From an uncultured Flavobacteriaceae bacterium (GTDB lineage Bacteria; Bacteroidota; Bacteroidia; Flavobacteriales; Flavobacteriaceae), in contig CANLRK010000003.1 in the NCBI GenBank assembly GCA_947493535.1, positions 1 through 64,000 of the forward strand: a stretch of DNA of 64,000 nucleotides. Reading direction: 5' to 3'. The notes under the pieces are model-generated. The model was not told the DNA's origin. It saw only the letters and a list, made by a program, of their open reading frames with translations, and did not search any database. Of this stretch, positions 25,225 to 30,934 are shown in pieces (the stretch's first letter is position 1; each line of letters begins with the position of its first letter). Position numbers and translations under genes: made by a program.

Positions 25225-26334
25225 ATGAAAAAAAAGTTCTTACAAGTTATAGTTTTTTTGTGTATGTTTTCATTTATAAATAATCTTTTTGGGCAAAAAA
25301 AAGTAGGTTTTACTAAGGCTGATCAAATATTGCAAAAATTAGTACGCCAGAAAAAAATTCCAGGTATAGCAGTAACCATAACAAAAAATGGGGTAACTAA
25401 ATGGTCAAAAGGTTATGGTTATGCGGATATAAAAAGAAAAATATCGGTAAATCCTAAAACTACAATTTTTAGAGTAGGAAGTGTTTCTAAACCAATAGCA
25501 GCAACAGGATTGGCTAAAATGGTTGAAAAAAATCAAATTAATTTAAATGACACTATTTATAAATATGTGCAGTACTTTCCTAAAAAGCAATATAGTTTTA
25601 CCTTAAAACAGTTAGGAGGTCATTTAGCAGGAATCCGAAATTATAAAGGCAATGAATTTATGAATAAGGAACATCTTTCAATACGCGAAGGTGTAGCATT
25701 GTTTGAAAATGATCCCTTATTGTTTGAGCCCGGTAATGATTATTTATATACAAGTTATAGCTGGAATTTACTATCCTTAGCTATGCAGGAAGCCGCTCAT
25801 AAACCTTTTGAGAAAATTATAGAAGAAGAGGTATTGCGGCCATTAAAACTAACAAACACCTTACCTGATACGACAGCTGTTTTTGATGGTAAAGCTGTTT
25901 TTTATCGTAAAAAGAGAAAAAGGAAATTTGTTGAAGTAAGCTTAGTAGATAACTTTTTTAAGTTAGCAGGGGGAGGATACTTATCAACATCTGAAGATGT
26001 TGCAAAATTAGGTAACGCCTATTTAAACGATGATTTTCTGTCAAAAGAGCTTAAAGAAAAGTTTGTTACATCACAAACGATCAATAATAAACCAACCTAT
26101 TATGGTATTGGTTGGCAAGCTAGTTTTGATCATAAAAATAGGGCGTATTTCGGTCATGTAGGTAATGGCTTAGGAGGTTACGGTATTTTTTATGTGTATC
26201 CTAAAGAGCAAGTAGTAATTACTATGCTAATGAACTGCTCTAACCCTAATCAGGATAAAAAGTTACATCAGGTAATTGATGCTTTTTTTGAAGAATTAAT
26301 GGATGACAGTACTACTGTGATGTCAGGGTCCTAA
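25225..26334 (+). CDS. Beta-lactamase-family (class C-like) serine hydrolase
   Basis: A 369-residue secreted serine hydrolase (signal up to NNLFGQ) of the S12/beta-lactamase fold, a family that includes DD-peptidases, esterases and LACTB-type proteins. The active-site SxxK is FRVGSVSKP (S86-x-x-K89). A tyrosine motif lies in YTSYSWNLLS, and the third motif is YFGHVGNGLGGYG. Insertions are few and the length fits the family. Substrate cannot be told; resistance to beta-lactams should not be assumed. Its last 23 bases overlap the end of convergent gldA. Confidence 0.85.
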   Translation: MKKKFLQVIVFLCMFSFINNLFGQKKVGFTKADQILQKLVRQKKIPGIAVTITKNGVTKWSKGYGYADIKRKISVNPKTTIFRVGSVSKPIAATGLAKMVEKNQINLNDTIYKYVQYFPKKQYSFTLKQLGGHLAGIRNYKGNEFMNKEHLSIREGVALFENDPLLFEPGNDYLYTSYSWNLLSLAMQEAAHKPFEKIIEEEVLRPLKLTNTLPDTTAVFDGKAVFYRKKRKRKFVEVSLVDNFFKLAGGGYLSTSEDVAKLGNAYLNDDFLSKELKEKFVTSQTINNKPTYYGIGWQASFDHKNRAYFGHVGNGLGGYGIFYVYPKEQVVITMLMNCSNPNQDKKLHQVIDAFFEELMDDSTTVMSGS

Positions 26335-27208
26335 ACAAACTTTCTAGATTTTCGTTTTTAGTATTGAGTTTTAAGATTCTGAGTTCATTCTCCGCTGCAA
26401 AATCGAAAATTAACGAACGCATGTCTTTTTGAGTGTCAAAAGTTATTTCCCAAGTCATATCAAAAGTGTTTTTTGCAGATTTAACGTGAGGTAATCTTTT
26501 TAATAAAGCTTCTTCAATCCTGTAGTCAAATTCAACTTCAATTTGTTGTTCTTGGTTGTTTTTTAGTTCAGCTAGAGGGCTGTCAAGTACCAATTCTCCT
26601 TTATTAATAATAATAACCCGGTCGCAAATAGCTTCAACCTCTTGCATTATATGTGTGGAGAGAAAAATGGTTTTTTCTTTCCCAACATTTTTAATTAGTT
26701 GTCGTATTTCTACTAACTGATTAGGGTCTAAGCCAGTAGTAGGCTCATCTAAAATAAGAACGTCAGGGTTATGTAAAAGAGCGTTTGCTAAGCCAACACG
26801 TTGGCGGTATCCTTTTGAGAGCTGACTTATTTTTTTATGCGCCTCTGGGGTTAAACCAGTTAGATTAACTACTTCGTCTATTCTAGATTTAGAGACTTTA
26901 TATATGTTTGCATTAAAGGCTAGGTACTCCTTTACATACATATCTAAATATAAAGGGTTGTGTTCAGGTAAATAACCAACACTTTTTTGTACTTTTTTTT
27001 GATTAGTGGCAACATCATATTCATTAACCAATGCATTACCCTCAGAGCTGTTAATGTATGTAGTTAAAATTTTCATCATAGTAGATTTCCCGGCGCCATT
27101 AGGGCCTAAAAAACCAACGATCTCTCCTTTTTGTATAGTGAAGGAAACATTATTGAGAGCCTTTTGATTGCCGTAAAATTTTGAAATATGCTGAACTGAA
27201 ATTGACAT
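26312..27208 (-). CDS. gldA: Gliding motility ABC transporter ATP-binding protein GldA
   Basis: A 298-residue ABC ATPase. Walker A is GFLGPNGAGKST, the signature is SQLSKGYRQRVGLA and Walker B is VLILDEPTTGLDP, with STHIMQE as the H-loop. GldA with GldF and GldG forms a transporter needed for gliding in Flavobacterium johnsoniae, and the N-terminus MSISVQHISKFYGNQKALNN matches that protein closely. The start is ATG 27208. An upstream in-frame extension to 27322 contains the promoter and has no homology-like content. gldF and gldG are not in this window. It ends inside the convergent serine hydrolase gene by 23 bases. Confidence 0.92.
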   Translation of the reverse strand: MSISVQHISKFYGNQKALNNVSFTIQKGEIVGFLGPNGAGKSTMMKILTTYINSSEGNALVNEYDVATNQKKVQKSVGYLPEHNPLYLDMYVKEYLAFNANIYKVSKSRIDEVVNLTGLTPEAHKKISQLSKGYRQRVGLANALLHNPDVLILDEPTTGLDPNQLVEIRQLIKNVGKEKTIFLSTHIMQEVEAICDRVIIINKGELVLDSPLAELKNNQEQQIEVEFDYRIEEALLKRLPHVKSAKNTFDMTWEITFDTQKDMRSLIFDFAAENELRILKLNTKNENLESLFRTLTSQ

Positions 27209-27279: not shown

Positions 27280-27309
27280 TTGCTTGCAAATAATTTTGTA
27301 ATACATTTG
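27280..27309 (+). promoter_or_regulatory. Promoter of the phe leader-pheA operon
   Basis: TTG (27280-27282), 19 bases, then TACATTTG (27302-27309) match the consensus. The start of transcription would fall near 27315, some 13 bases before the leader-peptide ATG at 27328. The -33 elements of this promoter and of gldA stand back to back. Confidence 0.7.
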
Positions 27310-27327
27310 CAGGGTAAAGCAATTACA

Positions 27328-27411
27328 ATGATAAAGCATAATACTTGGCAGAGTTTTTATTTTAACTTTTACTTTTTTAGTAAGAGCAGAGACTTTGTAG
27401 GTGTTATTTAA
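27328..27411 (+). CDS. Putative phe/tyr leader peptide (attenuator)
   Basis: A 27-codon frame, ATG 27328 to TAA 27411, beginning MIKHNTWQSFYFNFYFF. Eight consecutive codons (10-17) are Phe, Tyr, Phe, Asn, Phe, Tyr, Phe, Phe, with a Trp at position 7 and another Phe at 23. It ends 93 bases before pheA and lies directly upstream of a terminator. Composition, size and place match the PheL class of leader peptides known in enterobacteria; the sequence is unrelated to PheL. Ribosome stalling at the Phe/Tyr run when charged tRNA is scarce would control pheA. This is inferred, but the base-pairing evidence (see the attenuator entry) is strong. Confidence 0.8.
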   Translation: MIKHNTWQSFYFNFYFFSKSRDFVGVI

Positions 27412-27468
27412 AAGGTGTTAAAACAATAAAATAATTATATAAAGTCTCGAGAAATCGGGACTTTTTTT
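27338..27468 (+). promoter_or_regulatory. Transcription attenuator of the pheA operon
   Basis: Region 1 (27338-27358) pairs with region 2 (27388-27407) over 20 pairs with a single bulged base; six are G-U. The 29-base loop holds most Phe/Tyr codons. Region 2 bases 27389-27396 (GAGACTTT) also pair perfectly with region 3 (AAAGTCTC, 27441-27448), an antiterminator. Region 3 is the left arm of the terminator. If a ribosome stalls on the Phe/Tyr codons, region 1 is masked and 2:3 forms, permitting readthrough. If it reaches the stop codon, 2 is covered and the terminator forms. Confidence 0.78.
27441..27468 (+). terminator. Attenuator terminator upstream of pheA
   Basis: AAAGTCTCGA (27441-27450), loop GAAA, TCGGGACTTT (27455-27464): ten pairs with one U-G, overlapping a seven-T tract (27462-27468). 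No plus-strand gene ends upstream, apart from the leader peptide, so its natural role is attenuation and not the end of a gene. Confidence 0.85.
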
Positions 27469-27504
27469 GCTTTAAAAAGTGCCGCTTTCACGAGTTGAAA
27501 TTCT

Positions 27505-28389
27505 ATGAAAATAAAAATAGCTATACAAGGTATTGAAAGTTCTTTTCATCATGTTGCGGCAACAAAATTAATAGGTAATAAAAATATAGATTTGGTGCCC
27601 TGTGACTCTTTTGAAAAAGTTACTGCAGCAGTAAATAGTAATAAAGCAGATTATGGTGTTTTAGCAATTGAGAACACCATAGCAGGAGCAATTTTACCTA
27701 ACTACAATTTGATTGATAGTGCTAAAATGGTAATTTTAGATGAAGTTTATTTAACAATTCAAATGCATTTAATGGCTTTGAAAAGTGAGTCGATTCATGA
27801 TATAAAAGAGGTGCATTCTCATCCTGTAGCATTACTACAGTGTAAAAAATATTTAAGCAAATTTCCGCCACAATTTAAGGTGATAGAAGGTAAGGATACA
27901 GCTTTTGAAGCTCGTAAAATAAAAACAGAGCAACTAAGAGGGGTAGCGGCTATTGCAGGAAGACAAGTAGCAAGTAAGTACGGATTGAAAATATTAGATA
28001 GTAATATACAGCATGTGAAAAACAATGAAACACGTTTTGTGTTGTTAGGAAAAAAACCAAGCAAACAAGTAAGTATAGCTAATAAGGCAACACTAAAGTT
28101 TGTATTAAAACATGAGGTAGGTAGTTTGTCTAATATTTTGCAAGTATTTAGTACCTTTAATATTAATCTTACAAAAATTCAGTCGCTGCCTATACTTGAT
28201 AGTCCGTGGCAATATGCTTTTTTTGTTGATGTTGTTTTTCAAGACTATCAATTATTGATTTCCGTAATAGAAGTTTTAGAAAAAGTGGTAAAGCAGCTTA
28301 CGGTTTTAGGAGTGTATAGAGAGAATAAAAAGAATTATAATAGTGAGTTAATTACAAGTGTTTGCAACAAACATTTAACAAGTAATTAA
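27505..28389 (+). CDS. pheA: Prephenate dehydratase
   Basis: A 294-residue enzyme turning prephenate into phenylpyruvate, the committed step to phenylalanine. The catalytic domain (1-185) shows IAIQGIESSFHHVAA, GVLAIENTIAGAI and NNETRFVLLGK, the last with the Thr-Arg-Phe active-site trio. Residues 195-275 are an ACT domain (LKFVLKHEVGSLSNILQVF, then INLTKIQSLP) that would bind Phe for feedback inhibition; the usual ESRP is replaced by QSLP. No chorismate mutase is fused here; that activity is on the next gene. The gene follows the leader attenuator. Confidence 0.95.
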   Translation: MKIKIAIQGIESSFHHVAATKLIGNKNIDLVPCDSFEKVTAAVNSNKADYGVLAIENTIAGAILPNYNLIDSAKMVILDEVYLTIQMHLMALKSESIHDIKEVHSHPVALLQCKKYLSKFPPQFKVIEGKDTAFEARKIKTEQLRGVAAIAGRQVASKYGLKILDSNIQHVKNNETRFVLLGKKPSKQVSIANKATLKFVLKHEVGSLSNILQVFSTFNINLTKIQSLPILDSPWQYAFFVDVVFQDYQLLISVIEVLEKVVKQLTVLGVYRENKKNYNSELITSVCNKHLTSN

Positions 28390-28408: not shown

Positions 28409-29494
28409 ATGGAAAATAAAAAGGAATTCAGAACTTGGTTAGATGATATGCAGTTAAGCCATCCCTTGGTAATTGCAGGGCCCTGTAGTGCGGAAACAGA
28501 AGCGCAAGTATTGCAAATAGCGCATCAGTTAAAGGATACTGATGCAACTGTTTTTAGAGCTGGTATATGGAAACCAAGAACAAGACCAGGTAATTTTGAA
28601 GGGGTAGGAACAGTTGGTTTGCAATGGCTACAAAAAGCAAAACAAGAAACAGGTATGCAAATAGCTACAGAAGTAGCAAATTCAAACCATGTAGAGGCAG
28701 CATTAAAACACGATGTTGATATTTTATGGTTAGGAGCTAGAACTACGGTTAGTCCGTTTATTGTTCAAGAAATAGCCGAAGCGTTAAAAGGAACCGATAA
28801 AATTGTATTAATAAAAAATCCTATTAATCCTGATTTGCCATTATGGTTAGGAGCGGTAGAGCGTTTGTATACATCAAATATATCTAAATTAGGGGTAATT
28901 CATAGAGGGTTTTCTACGTATGAAAAGTCAAAATATCGTAACAATCCAGAGTGGCAAATACCAATAGATTTGAAAAATCATTTTCCAGATTTGCCGTTGC
29001 TTTGTGACCCTTCACACATAGGCGGACGTAGAAATTTAATTTTTGATATTTGCCAAACAGCATTGGATTTAAATTTTGATGGTTTTATGGTAGAGACACA
29101 TTTTGACCCTGATAATGCTTGGTCTGATGCTAAACAACAAATAACTCCAGATGTTTTAGTACAAATGATGATTGATTTAAAGGTGCGAAAAAAACAAGCA
29201 GCTTCTGAAGATTATCTTTTTGAGCTACATAAGTTACGTGCTAATATTGATGTGTTAGATGATAAGTTGTTAGGAATGCTTGGGAAAAGAATGCAAGTAG
29301 CCGATAGCATAGGGCAGTTGAAAAAAGAGAATAATGTGTCAATATTACAAACCAATAGGTGGAATGAAATTTTAGGGAAAATGATTCTTCAAGGAGAAGA
29401 AAAAGGATTAAGTGAAGAGTTTATTTTAAAAATTTATAAAGCTATACATCAAGAATCGATTAACCATCAGAAGAAAGTAATTAATAAAAATTGA
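28409..29494 (+). CDS. Bifunctional DAHP synthase and chorismate mutase (type II)
   Basis: A 361-residue fusion. Residues 1-260 are 3-deoxy-7-phosphoheptulonate synthase of the KDO8P-synthase-like class, which opens the shikimate pathway: VIAGPCSAETEAQ, FRAGIWKPRTRPGNFEGVG, CDPSHIGGRRN and ETHFDPDNAWSDAKQQ. Residues 268-355 are an all-helical AroQ chorismate mutase (LHKLRANIDVLDDKLL, KRMQVADSIGQLKKEN). The fusion lets chorismate mutase regulate the entry enzyme in related systems. It starts 20 bases after pheA; the aminotransferase and prephenate dehydrogenase genes often found between them in relatives are absent. Confidence 0.93.
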   Translation: MENKKEFRTWLDDMQLSHPLVIAGPCSAETEAQVLQIAHQLKDTDATVFRAGIWKPRTRPGNFEGVGTVGLQWLQKAKQETGMQIATEVANSNHVEAALKHDVDILWLGARTTVSPFIVQEIAEALKGTDKIVLIKNPINPDLPLWLGAVERLYTSNISKLGVIHRGFSTYEKSKYRNNPEWQIPIDLKNHFPDLPLLCDPSHIGGRRNLIFDICQTALDLNFDGFMVETHFDPDNAWSDAKQQITPDVLVQMMIDLKVRKKQAASEDYLFELHKLRANIDVLDDKLLGMLGKRMQVADSIGQLKKENNVSILQTNRWNEILGKMILQGEEKGLSEEFILKIYKAIHQESINHQKKVINKN

Positions 29495-29524: not shown

Positions 29525-30475
29525 ATGACAGGAATAGTTTATAAATCTACAGGGAGTTGGTATACGGTAAAAACCGCGGAAGGAGTAGTTTATAAGTGTC
29601 GTATAAAAGGGAAATTCCGTATTAAAGGTATAAAAAGTACCAATCCTATTGCTGTTGGTGATGTGGTTGATTTTACTATTGAAGAAAAAAATAACGAAGA
29701 AACTGGTGTAATACATAAAATTCATGATCGGATGAATTATGTGGTGAGAAAGTCGGTAAACCTTTCAAAAAGAATTCACATAATAGCATCAAATATTGAC
29801 CAAGTTTTTTTGTTAATCACATTAAATAATCCGCCAACTTTCACAAGTTTTATCGATCGGTTTTTAGCTACCACTGAAGCGTACAATGTGAAAACTGTAT
29901 TGCTTTTTAACAAGGTAGATTCGTATAATGAAGAGGAGGTTTTGGAGGTGAAATACTTGGCAAACTTATACAGAAATATAGGTTATGAATGTATAGGAGT
30001 GTCAGCATTACAAGGTAAAAATGTAGATAAGGTTAAAGAAATGATGCTGAATAAAACAAGTATGTTTGTTGGGCACTCTGGAGTAGGAAAATCAACTTTA
30101 GTTAATACTATTGAGCCAAGTTTAGATATTAAAACGCAACAAATTTCTAGCCAGCATAGCCAAGGGCAACATACCACAACTTTTGCAGAAATGTTCGATC
30201 TCTCCTTCGACGCTAAAATAATTGACACCCCTGGGATTAAAGGGTTTGGGATAGTAGATATGGAGAAAGAAGAGATAACCGATTATTTCCCGGAGTTTTT
30301 TGCTTTAAAACAAGATTGTAAATTTAATAATTGTTTGCATATAGAAGAGCCTCATTGCGCTGTAAAGGAAGCGCTTGATAATGATGAAATTGCTTTTTCA
30401 AGATATAAAAGTTACCTTCAAATGATTGAGGGAGATGAAGAGCATTATCGCGTAGATGAATATAAAAAAGATTAA
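29525..30475 (+). CDS. rsgA: Ribosome small-subunit GTPase RsgA
   Basis: A 316-residue circularly permuted GTPase that matures the 30S subunit. The order is OB fold (1-70), then the G domain with the G4 motif FNKVDS at 128-133 ahead of the P-loop GHSGVGKST (183-191) and DTPGI, as expected for the permutation. The C-terminal zinc site is visible in CKFNNCLHIEEPHC. It is part of a run with dtd and, further on, mazG, aroA and queA that is common in Flavobacteriaceae. Confidence 0.95.
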   Translation: MTGIVYKSTGSWYTVKTAEGVVYKCRIKGKFRIKGIKSTNPIAVGDVVDFTIEEKNNEETGVIHKIHDRMNYVVRKSVNLSKRIHIIASNIDQVFLLITLNNPPTFTSFIDRFLATTEAYNVKTVLLFNKVDSYNEEEVLEVKYLANLYRNIGYECIGVSALQGKNVDKVKEMMLNKTSMFVGHSGVGKSTLVNTIEPSLDIKTQQISSQHSQGQHTTTFAEMFDLSFDAKIIDTPGIKGFGIVDMEKEEITDYFPEFFALKQDCKFNNCLHIEEPHCAVKEALDNDEIAFSRYKSYLQMIEGDEEHYRVDEYKKD

Positions 30476-30481
30476 TTTTTT

Positions 30482-30934
30482 ATGAGAGCGGTAATACAAC
30501 GGGTGTCCGAAGCTTCAGTGACTATAGCGGGTGAAATAACTGCAAAAATAAGCAATGGACTTGTAGTGTTAATTGGTATTGAGGTTGAAGATACTATAAA
30601 TGACGTTACTTGGCTTACTTCCAAAATAGCCAAAATGCGTATTTTTTCTGATGCAAATGGTTTAATGAATAAATCTGTTATTGATGTAAAAGGAGAAGTG
30701 ATAGTAGTTAGTCAGTTTACCTTATATGCCAGTACTAAAAAAGGAAATAGACCTGGATTTACCCAATCTGCAAAGCCTGAAATAGCCATACCAATCTACC
30801 AAAAATTTATTACTTGTTTAGAGGTTGAGATTGGTAAGTCAGTTCAAACAGGAAAGTTTGGAGCTGATATGAAAGTAGCACTAATTAATGATGGGCCAGT
30901 AACGATACAAATAGACACAAAAAATAAAGAGTAA
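30482..30934 (+). CDS. dtd: D-aminoacyl-tRNA deacylase
   Basis: A 150-residue dimeric enzyme that removes D-amino acids (and glycine mischarged on tRNA-Ala) from tRNA. The two active-site motifs are visible: SQFTLYASTKKGNRPGFTQS (the SQFTL stretch) and NDGPVTIQID (the Gly-Pro pair). It starts six bases after rsgA, so the two are co-transcribed. No terminator follows it clearly. Confidence 0.95.
   Translation: MRAVIQRVSEASVTIAGEITAKISNGLVVLIGIEVEDTINDVTWLTSKIAKMRIFSDANGLMNKSVIDVKGEVIVVSQFTLYASTKKGNRPGFTQSAKPEIAIPIYQKFITCLEVEIGKSVQTGKFGADMKVALINDGPVTIQIDTKNKE

Follow-up and report, generated by a model that had tools for sequence, protein, structure and literature searches.

The window, a 64,000-nt stretch of DNA from an uncultured Flavobacteriaceae bacterium, carries a short reading frame rich in Phe and Tyr codons and an intrinsic terminator just ahead of a gene for Phe synthesis. 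Leader-peptide attenuation is textbook knowledge, of a kind known since E. coli. Do these parts form such an attenuator, in which translation of the short frame decides whether the gene is transcribed, and which amino acids would it sense?

Leader, helices and operon in the window

The region reads as follows.

27280..27309 (+): putative Bacteroidota-type promoter, with TTG at 27280-27282, a 19 nt spacer and the -7 box TACATTTG at 27302-27309
27328..27411 (+): leader peptide reading frame of 27 codons, MIKHNTWQSFYFNFYFFSKSRDFVGVI, from ATG (27328-27330) to the stop codon TAA (27409-27411)
27355..27378 (+): putative sensing codons 10-17 (F Y F N F Y F F)
27338..27358 (+): region 1, the partner of region 2 when the leader is untranslated
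27388..27407 (+): region 2, whose part 27389-27399 also partners region 3 (antiterminator)
27438..27450 (+): region 3, pairing with region 2 through 27438-27448 and with region 4 through 27441-27450
27455..27468 (+): region 4 (27455-27464) and seven T (27462-27468), completing the intrinsic terminator 3:4
27505..28389 (+): prephenate dehydratase gene (pheA-type, without a chorismate mutase domain), the regulated gene
28409..29494 (+): DAHP synthase / chorismate mutase gene, second in the operon after a 19 nt gap
29525..30934 (+): rsgA (29525-30475) and the D-aminoacyl-tRNA deacylase gene dtd (30482-30934), co-directional

When the sequence was re-read, the leader frame and the Phe/Tyr core at codons 10-17 proved to be exactly as given in a first-pass annotation of this DNA; nine of the 27 residues are F or Y. 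The consensus promoter placed there at 27280-27309 stands as a promoter, but judged from its sequence it is of the Bacteroidota type, not the sigma-70 type. Of 135 loci, 115 have a -7 box of the form TAnnTT[TA]G ahead of the leader's start codon, compared with 18 of 667 background windows (2.7%), and the distance from the box (TAnnTTTG) to the start codon is mostly 16-22 nt. With the usual start-site distance from the box, the untranslated 5′ part would be only about a dozen bases long. The window leader has no Shine-Dalgarno-like motif, and such tetramers occur in only 2 of 134 leaders. It has A at -3, as do 72% of the leaders of relatives, consistent with a Kozak-like signal reported in F. 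johnsoniae (PMC6847099). In Bacteroidota ribosomes the anti-Shine-Dalgarno sequence is sequestered (PMC10931766).

The minimum-energy fold contains hairpin 1:2 (27338-27358 with 27388-27407) as had been proposed, and the fold of 27316-27475 has a z of -4.7 against 200 shuffles, none of which is equally stable. The competing 2:3 pairing, first described as 8 bp (27389-27396 with 27441-27448), is exact and in fact reaches 11 bp (27389-27399 with 27438-27448); the terminator ending in seven T is likewise found, at 27441-27450/27455-27464. As isolated helices, 1:2, 2:3 and 3:4 have energies of -18.7, -14.3 and -12.0, respectively. Because region 3 is the common arm, antiterminator and terminator are mutually exclusive, as in attenuators of the trp, his and phe type, which also share the protector hairpin 1:2 of an untranslated leader. 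When the joint pattern was defined as a Phe/Tyr-rich frame of 12-40 codons with a perfect terminator within 80 nt, it occurred a single time in the window, both strands counted, and in none of 3000 dinucleotide shuffles of the region. In a hunt for further attenuators in the genome, a short Phe/Tyr codon pattern was as frequent as its reversed control.

The product of 27505..28389 matches NCBIfam PRK11898 at 7e-61, slightly below the cut-off, and PF00800 above its cut-off, being the sole such gene in the genome. The order of prephenate dehydratase and DAHP synthase/chorismate mutase is kept in Kordia and Aequorivita loci. The downstream order with rsgA and dtd is also shared with relatives, and these two genes may belong to the pheA transcript and so come under its attenuator. 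On the other side of the leader, the divergent neighbour is gldA (26312-27208, minus strand), for a gliding-motility ABC transporter ATPase.

Conservation and pairing among relatives

As checks on its reading, the first-pass annotation had proposed looking across Flavobacteriaceae for the short frame and for compensatory changes in the three helices. A Phe/Tyr-rich short frame precedes the prephenate dehydratase gene, with a terminator behind it, in 88 of 90 Flavobacteriaceae loci, these being the best 90 of 226 matches by prephenate dehydratase and no random draw. Relatives with a leader include Kordia, Aequorivita, Ulvibacter, Dokdonia, Formosa, Olleya, Aquimarina and Flavobacterium rakeshii (L112); a few leaders (e.g. 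L025) were called from a GTG or TTG start. One of the two loci in the family without the element, L033, has its gene behind a repetitive reading frame, in an altered upstream context. The element is present in several further families of the class, on a Bacteroidales contig (L119), and in two families listed outside the class, with a single genome from each (L152 and L159). It was not found in 25 more distant loci, 23 of them outside the class and two from another family of the order, nor in two loci within the class (L140 and L145) or in Lysobacter. No phage relative was found.

Since the frames were picked by their Phe/Tyr content, that content proves little beyond recurrence, and pairing serves as the independent test. 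The mean energy of 2:3 over 135 loci is -12.2 kcal/mol; it weakens to -8.5 when arms are swapped among loci and to -5.6 when region 2 is shuffled. Compared with synonymous recodings that preserve the peptide, 2:3, the leader fold and 1:2 are stronger in 93, 96 and 90% of 134 loci, with mean z of -1.85, -2.05 and -1.6, respectively, and in 91, 95 and 86% of the 98 non-redundant loci.

Covariation was counted on an alignment of 36 sequences. Helix 3:4 has 98.8% of its cells paired, with six pairs altered on both sides (39 two-sided cells); helix 2:3 has 81% paired, with four such pairs (17 cells), and helix 1:2 has 76% paired, with nine (31 cells). Sliding the partners lowers the paired cells in all three helices. 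The two-sided cell counts were never reached in 500 shuffles, although these shuffle counts are not probabilities, as related sequences are not independent and kinship somewhat inflates the counts. RNAalifold recovered 3:4 alone from the same alignment because 1:2 and 2:3 are mutually exclusive and low-scoring, and for this reason the three helices were counted separately. Two-sided changes are thus found in 1:2, 2:3 and 3:4 alike.

These results bear on whether the short frame could instead encode a small functional peptide, with the terminator ending its own transcript and any regulation of pheA incidental. In favour of such a peptide, its F/Y core is indeed conserved. Outside that core, however, peptide sequence and length vary freely, while the nucleotides pair better than their synonymous versions and the three helices covary. 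Moreover, the element tracks the gene, and L033, which lacks the element, is a locus with changed upstream context. We regard a functional peptide as very improbable.

Ribosome position and the predicted switch

Whether a ribosome on the leader could decide the fold was examined by masking the A-site plus 12 nt during folding, with footprint distances taken from E. coli. Over codons 9-17, every mask position tried gives 11 bp of 2:3 as long as arm 4 is still unmade. With the mask at codon 20, at codon 23 or on the stop codon, 2:3 does not form and the terminator remains. Folding order matters, since with the mask at codon 11 and the whole terminator present another structure is preferred. Assuming the E. 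coli footprint, all 134 loci have two or more Phe/Tyr codons at which region 2 stays uncovered, and in 97% of these loci region 2 lies inside the footprint of a ribosome at the stop codon. The distance from stop codon to terminator has a median of 24 nt. With that footprint, the placement of stall site and stop codon lets the ribosome decide the fold, as in known attenuators.

From the parts, their conservation, pairing and covariation, we infer stalling, switch and signal as follows. A ribosome would initiate on the leader frame shortly downstream of the transcript's 5′ end. When charged Phe-tRNA (or Tyr-tRNA) is scarce, it would stall in codons 10-17, covering region 1 and leaving region 2 free, so that region 2 could pair with nascent region 3 and block the terminator. 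The genes for prephenate dehydratase and DAHP synthase/chorismate mutase would then be transcribed. When Phe and Tyr are ample, on the other hand, the ribosome would reach the stop codon and cover region 2, allowing 3:4 to form and transcription to end near 27468. If the leader is not translated at all, 1:2 would form, and this too should lead to termination. It fits this course that the product of the regulated gene makes Phe, one of the amino acids that would be sensed.

The same geometry would also serve a leader that senses a general slow-down of translation rather than Phe or Tyr, because any stall within codons 10-17 would free region 2. Against such a sensor stands the mean of 8.5 Phe/Tyr codons per leader of about 24 residues in 134 loci, before a gene that makes Phe, and we consider it highly unlikely. 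Equally hard to credit is a protein or metabolite (an RNA-binding protein or a riboswitch ligand) that flips the hairpins while the leader frame is secondary: two alternative folds are a trait of many attenuators controlled in this way, but the element has no conserved unpaired stretch as an aptamer needs, the Rfam scan returned no riboswitch, and the invariant trait is a stretch of Phe/Tyr codons whose spacing to regions 2 and 3 is constant.

We therefore hold with high confidence that the element is a ribosome-mediated transcription attenuator with charged Phe/Tyr tRNA as its probable signal. The ribosome-mediated attenuation read from this DNA at first pass is supported by the conserved frame and the three covarying helices, with sensing itself as a predicted step.

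Amino acid supply, known systems and meaning

The host genome is 2.3 Mb in size and 99.6% complete. No Tyr pathway gene was found in it, neither prephenate dehydrogenase above the cut-off nor an aromatic amino acid hydroxylase, so its Tyr codons would report no Tyr product of its own. The search of this genome did not find hisG or ilvD either. With no recognisable copies of these genes, the host probably has to take up Tyr, His and branched-chain amino acids, being a probable auxotroph for Tyr, His and Ile/Val by gene content, while the genes for Phe synthesis and the attenuator are kept.

Prephenate dehydrogenase above the cut-off is missing in 19 of 80 searched genomes, including the host (G000), G060, G063 and G090. 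A biopterin-dependent aromatic amino acid hydroxylase is found in 18 of the 19, the exception being the host, and those 18 probably make Tyr from Phe. Where Tyr is obtainable from Phe in this way, sensing both amino acids is sensible for a Phe gene. The group lacking prephenate dehydrogenase centres on Kordia, Aequorivita and Ulvibacter, and in the loci read from this group the pheA operons have no aminotransferase gene.

The idea that Tyr codons follow a genome's own Tyr synthesis was set aside: leaders carry 2.4 Tyr codons in the genomes without prephenate dehydrogenase and 3.2 in the others, an unfair comparison as the former nearly all belong to one clade. Trp is present in 61% of the 98 non-redundant leaders, mostly within the Phe/Tyr core. 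As TGG also contributes a paired G to region 1, the Trp codons may reflect either Trp sensing or a structural need for GG.

An Rfam scan of the element at gathering and relaxed thresholds found no family member. The best match, to RF01859 (Phe_leader), spans the whole model; it scores 22.9 bits, where the gathering score is 55, and in 20 relatives its top score is 39.9 bits, again below gathering. By the Rfam test, the element is not a member of RF01859. It resembles enterobacterial pheL-pheA, which that family represents, in having a short Phe-rich leader, mutually exclusive 1:2, 2:3 and 3:4 helices, and a terminator before a prephenate dehydratase gene. Unlike pheL-pheA, however, Tyr codons are mixed with Phe codons, there is no Shine-Dalgarno motif, the start lies near the 5′ end, and the gene lacks a chorismate mutase domain. 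We find no evidence of common descent.

Leader-peptide attenuators of amino-acid operons were reportedly predicted by genome comparison by Vitreschak and co-workers in 2004, some of them, like the one here, in this phylum (Bacteroidetes/Chlorobi). The literature on attenuation in Bacteroidota that we found holds little beyond two papers. One, on B. thetaiotaomicron, mentions in general terms short frames that resemble leader peptides (PMC7366714). The other, a 2021 transcriptome of F. psychrophilum, describes an expressed and structured 5′ element before pheA that has no Rfam match and is stated to be conserved across further genera of Flavobacteriaceae; it also reports “strong clues” that operons for amino acids are preceded by leader-peptide attenuators (PMC9723704). 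Gene, family, position and conservation agree with the window element, and Flavobacterium rakeshii has the leader; going by that description, both are presumably one and the same element. The first-pass remark that it knew of no described phe attenuator in Bacteroidota is thus only partly right, since the pheA 5′ element had been reported; for pheA, the main text of that report lists neither a peptide nor helices nor covariation (PMC9723704). What is added here is breadth, covariation at the level of single helices and the initiation context; the mechanism itself is known.

More broadly, we lean toward a family of Phe/Tyr (perhaps Trp) attenuator RNAs that is unrecognised by Rfam and old in Bacteroidia, with leaders that lack a Shine-Dalgarno motif and begin about a dozen bases into the transcript. 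Because the element is widespread, alignable within groups and unrecognised by Rfam, a curated model would allow pheA regulation and the unannotated leader peptide to be annotated in many genomes. If it works as modelled, these promoters would tie translation tightly to transcription in a phylum whose initiation does without Shine-Dalgarno pairing. The element offers a ready natural system in which to test the coupling of the two processes in Bacteroidota.
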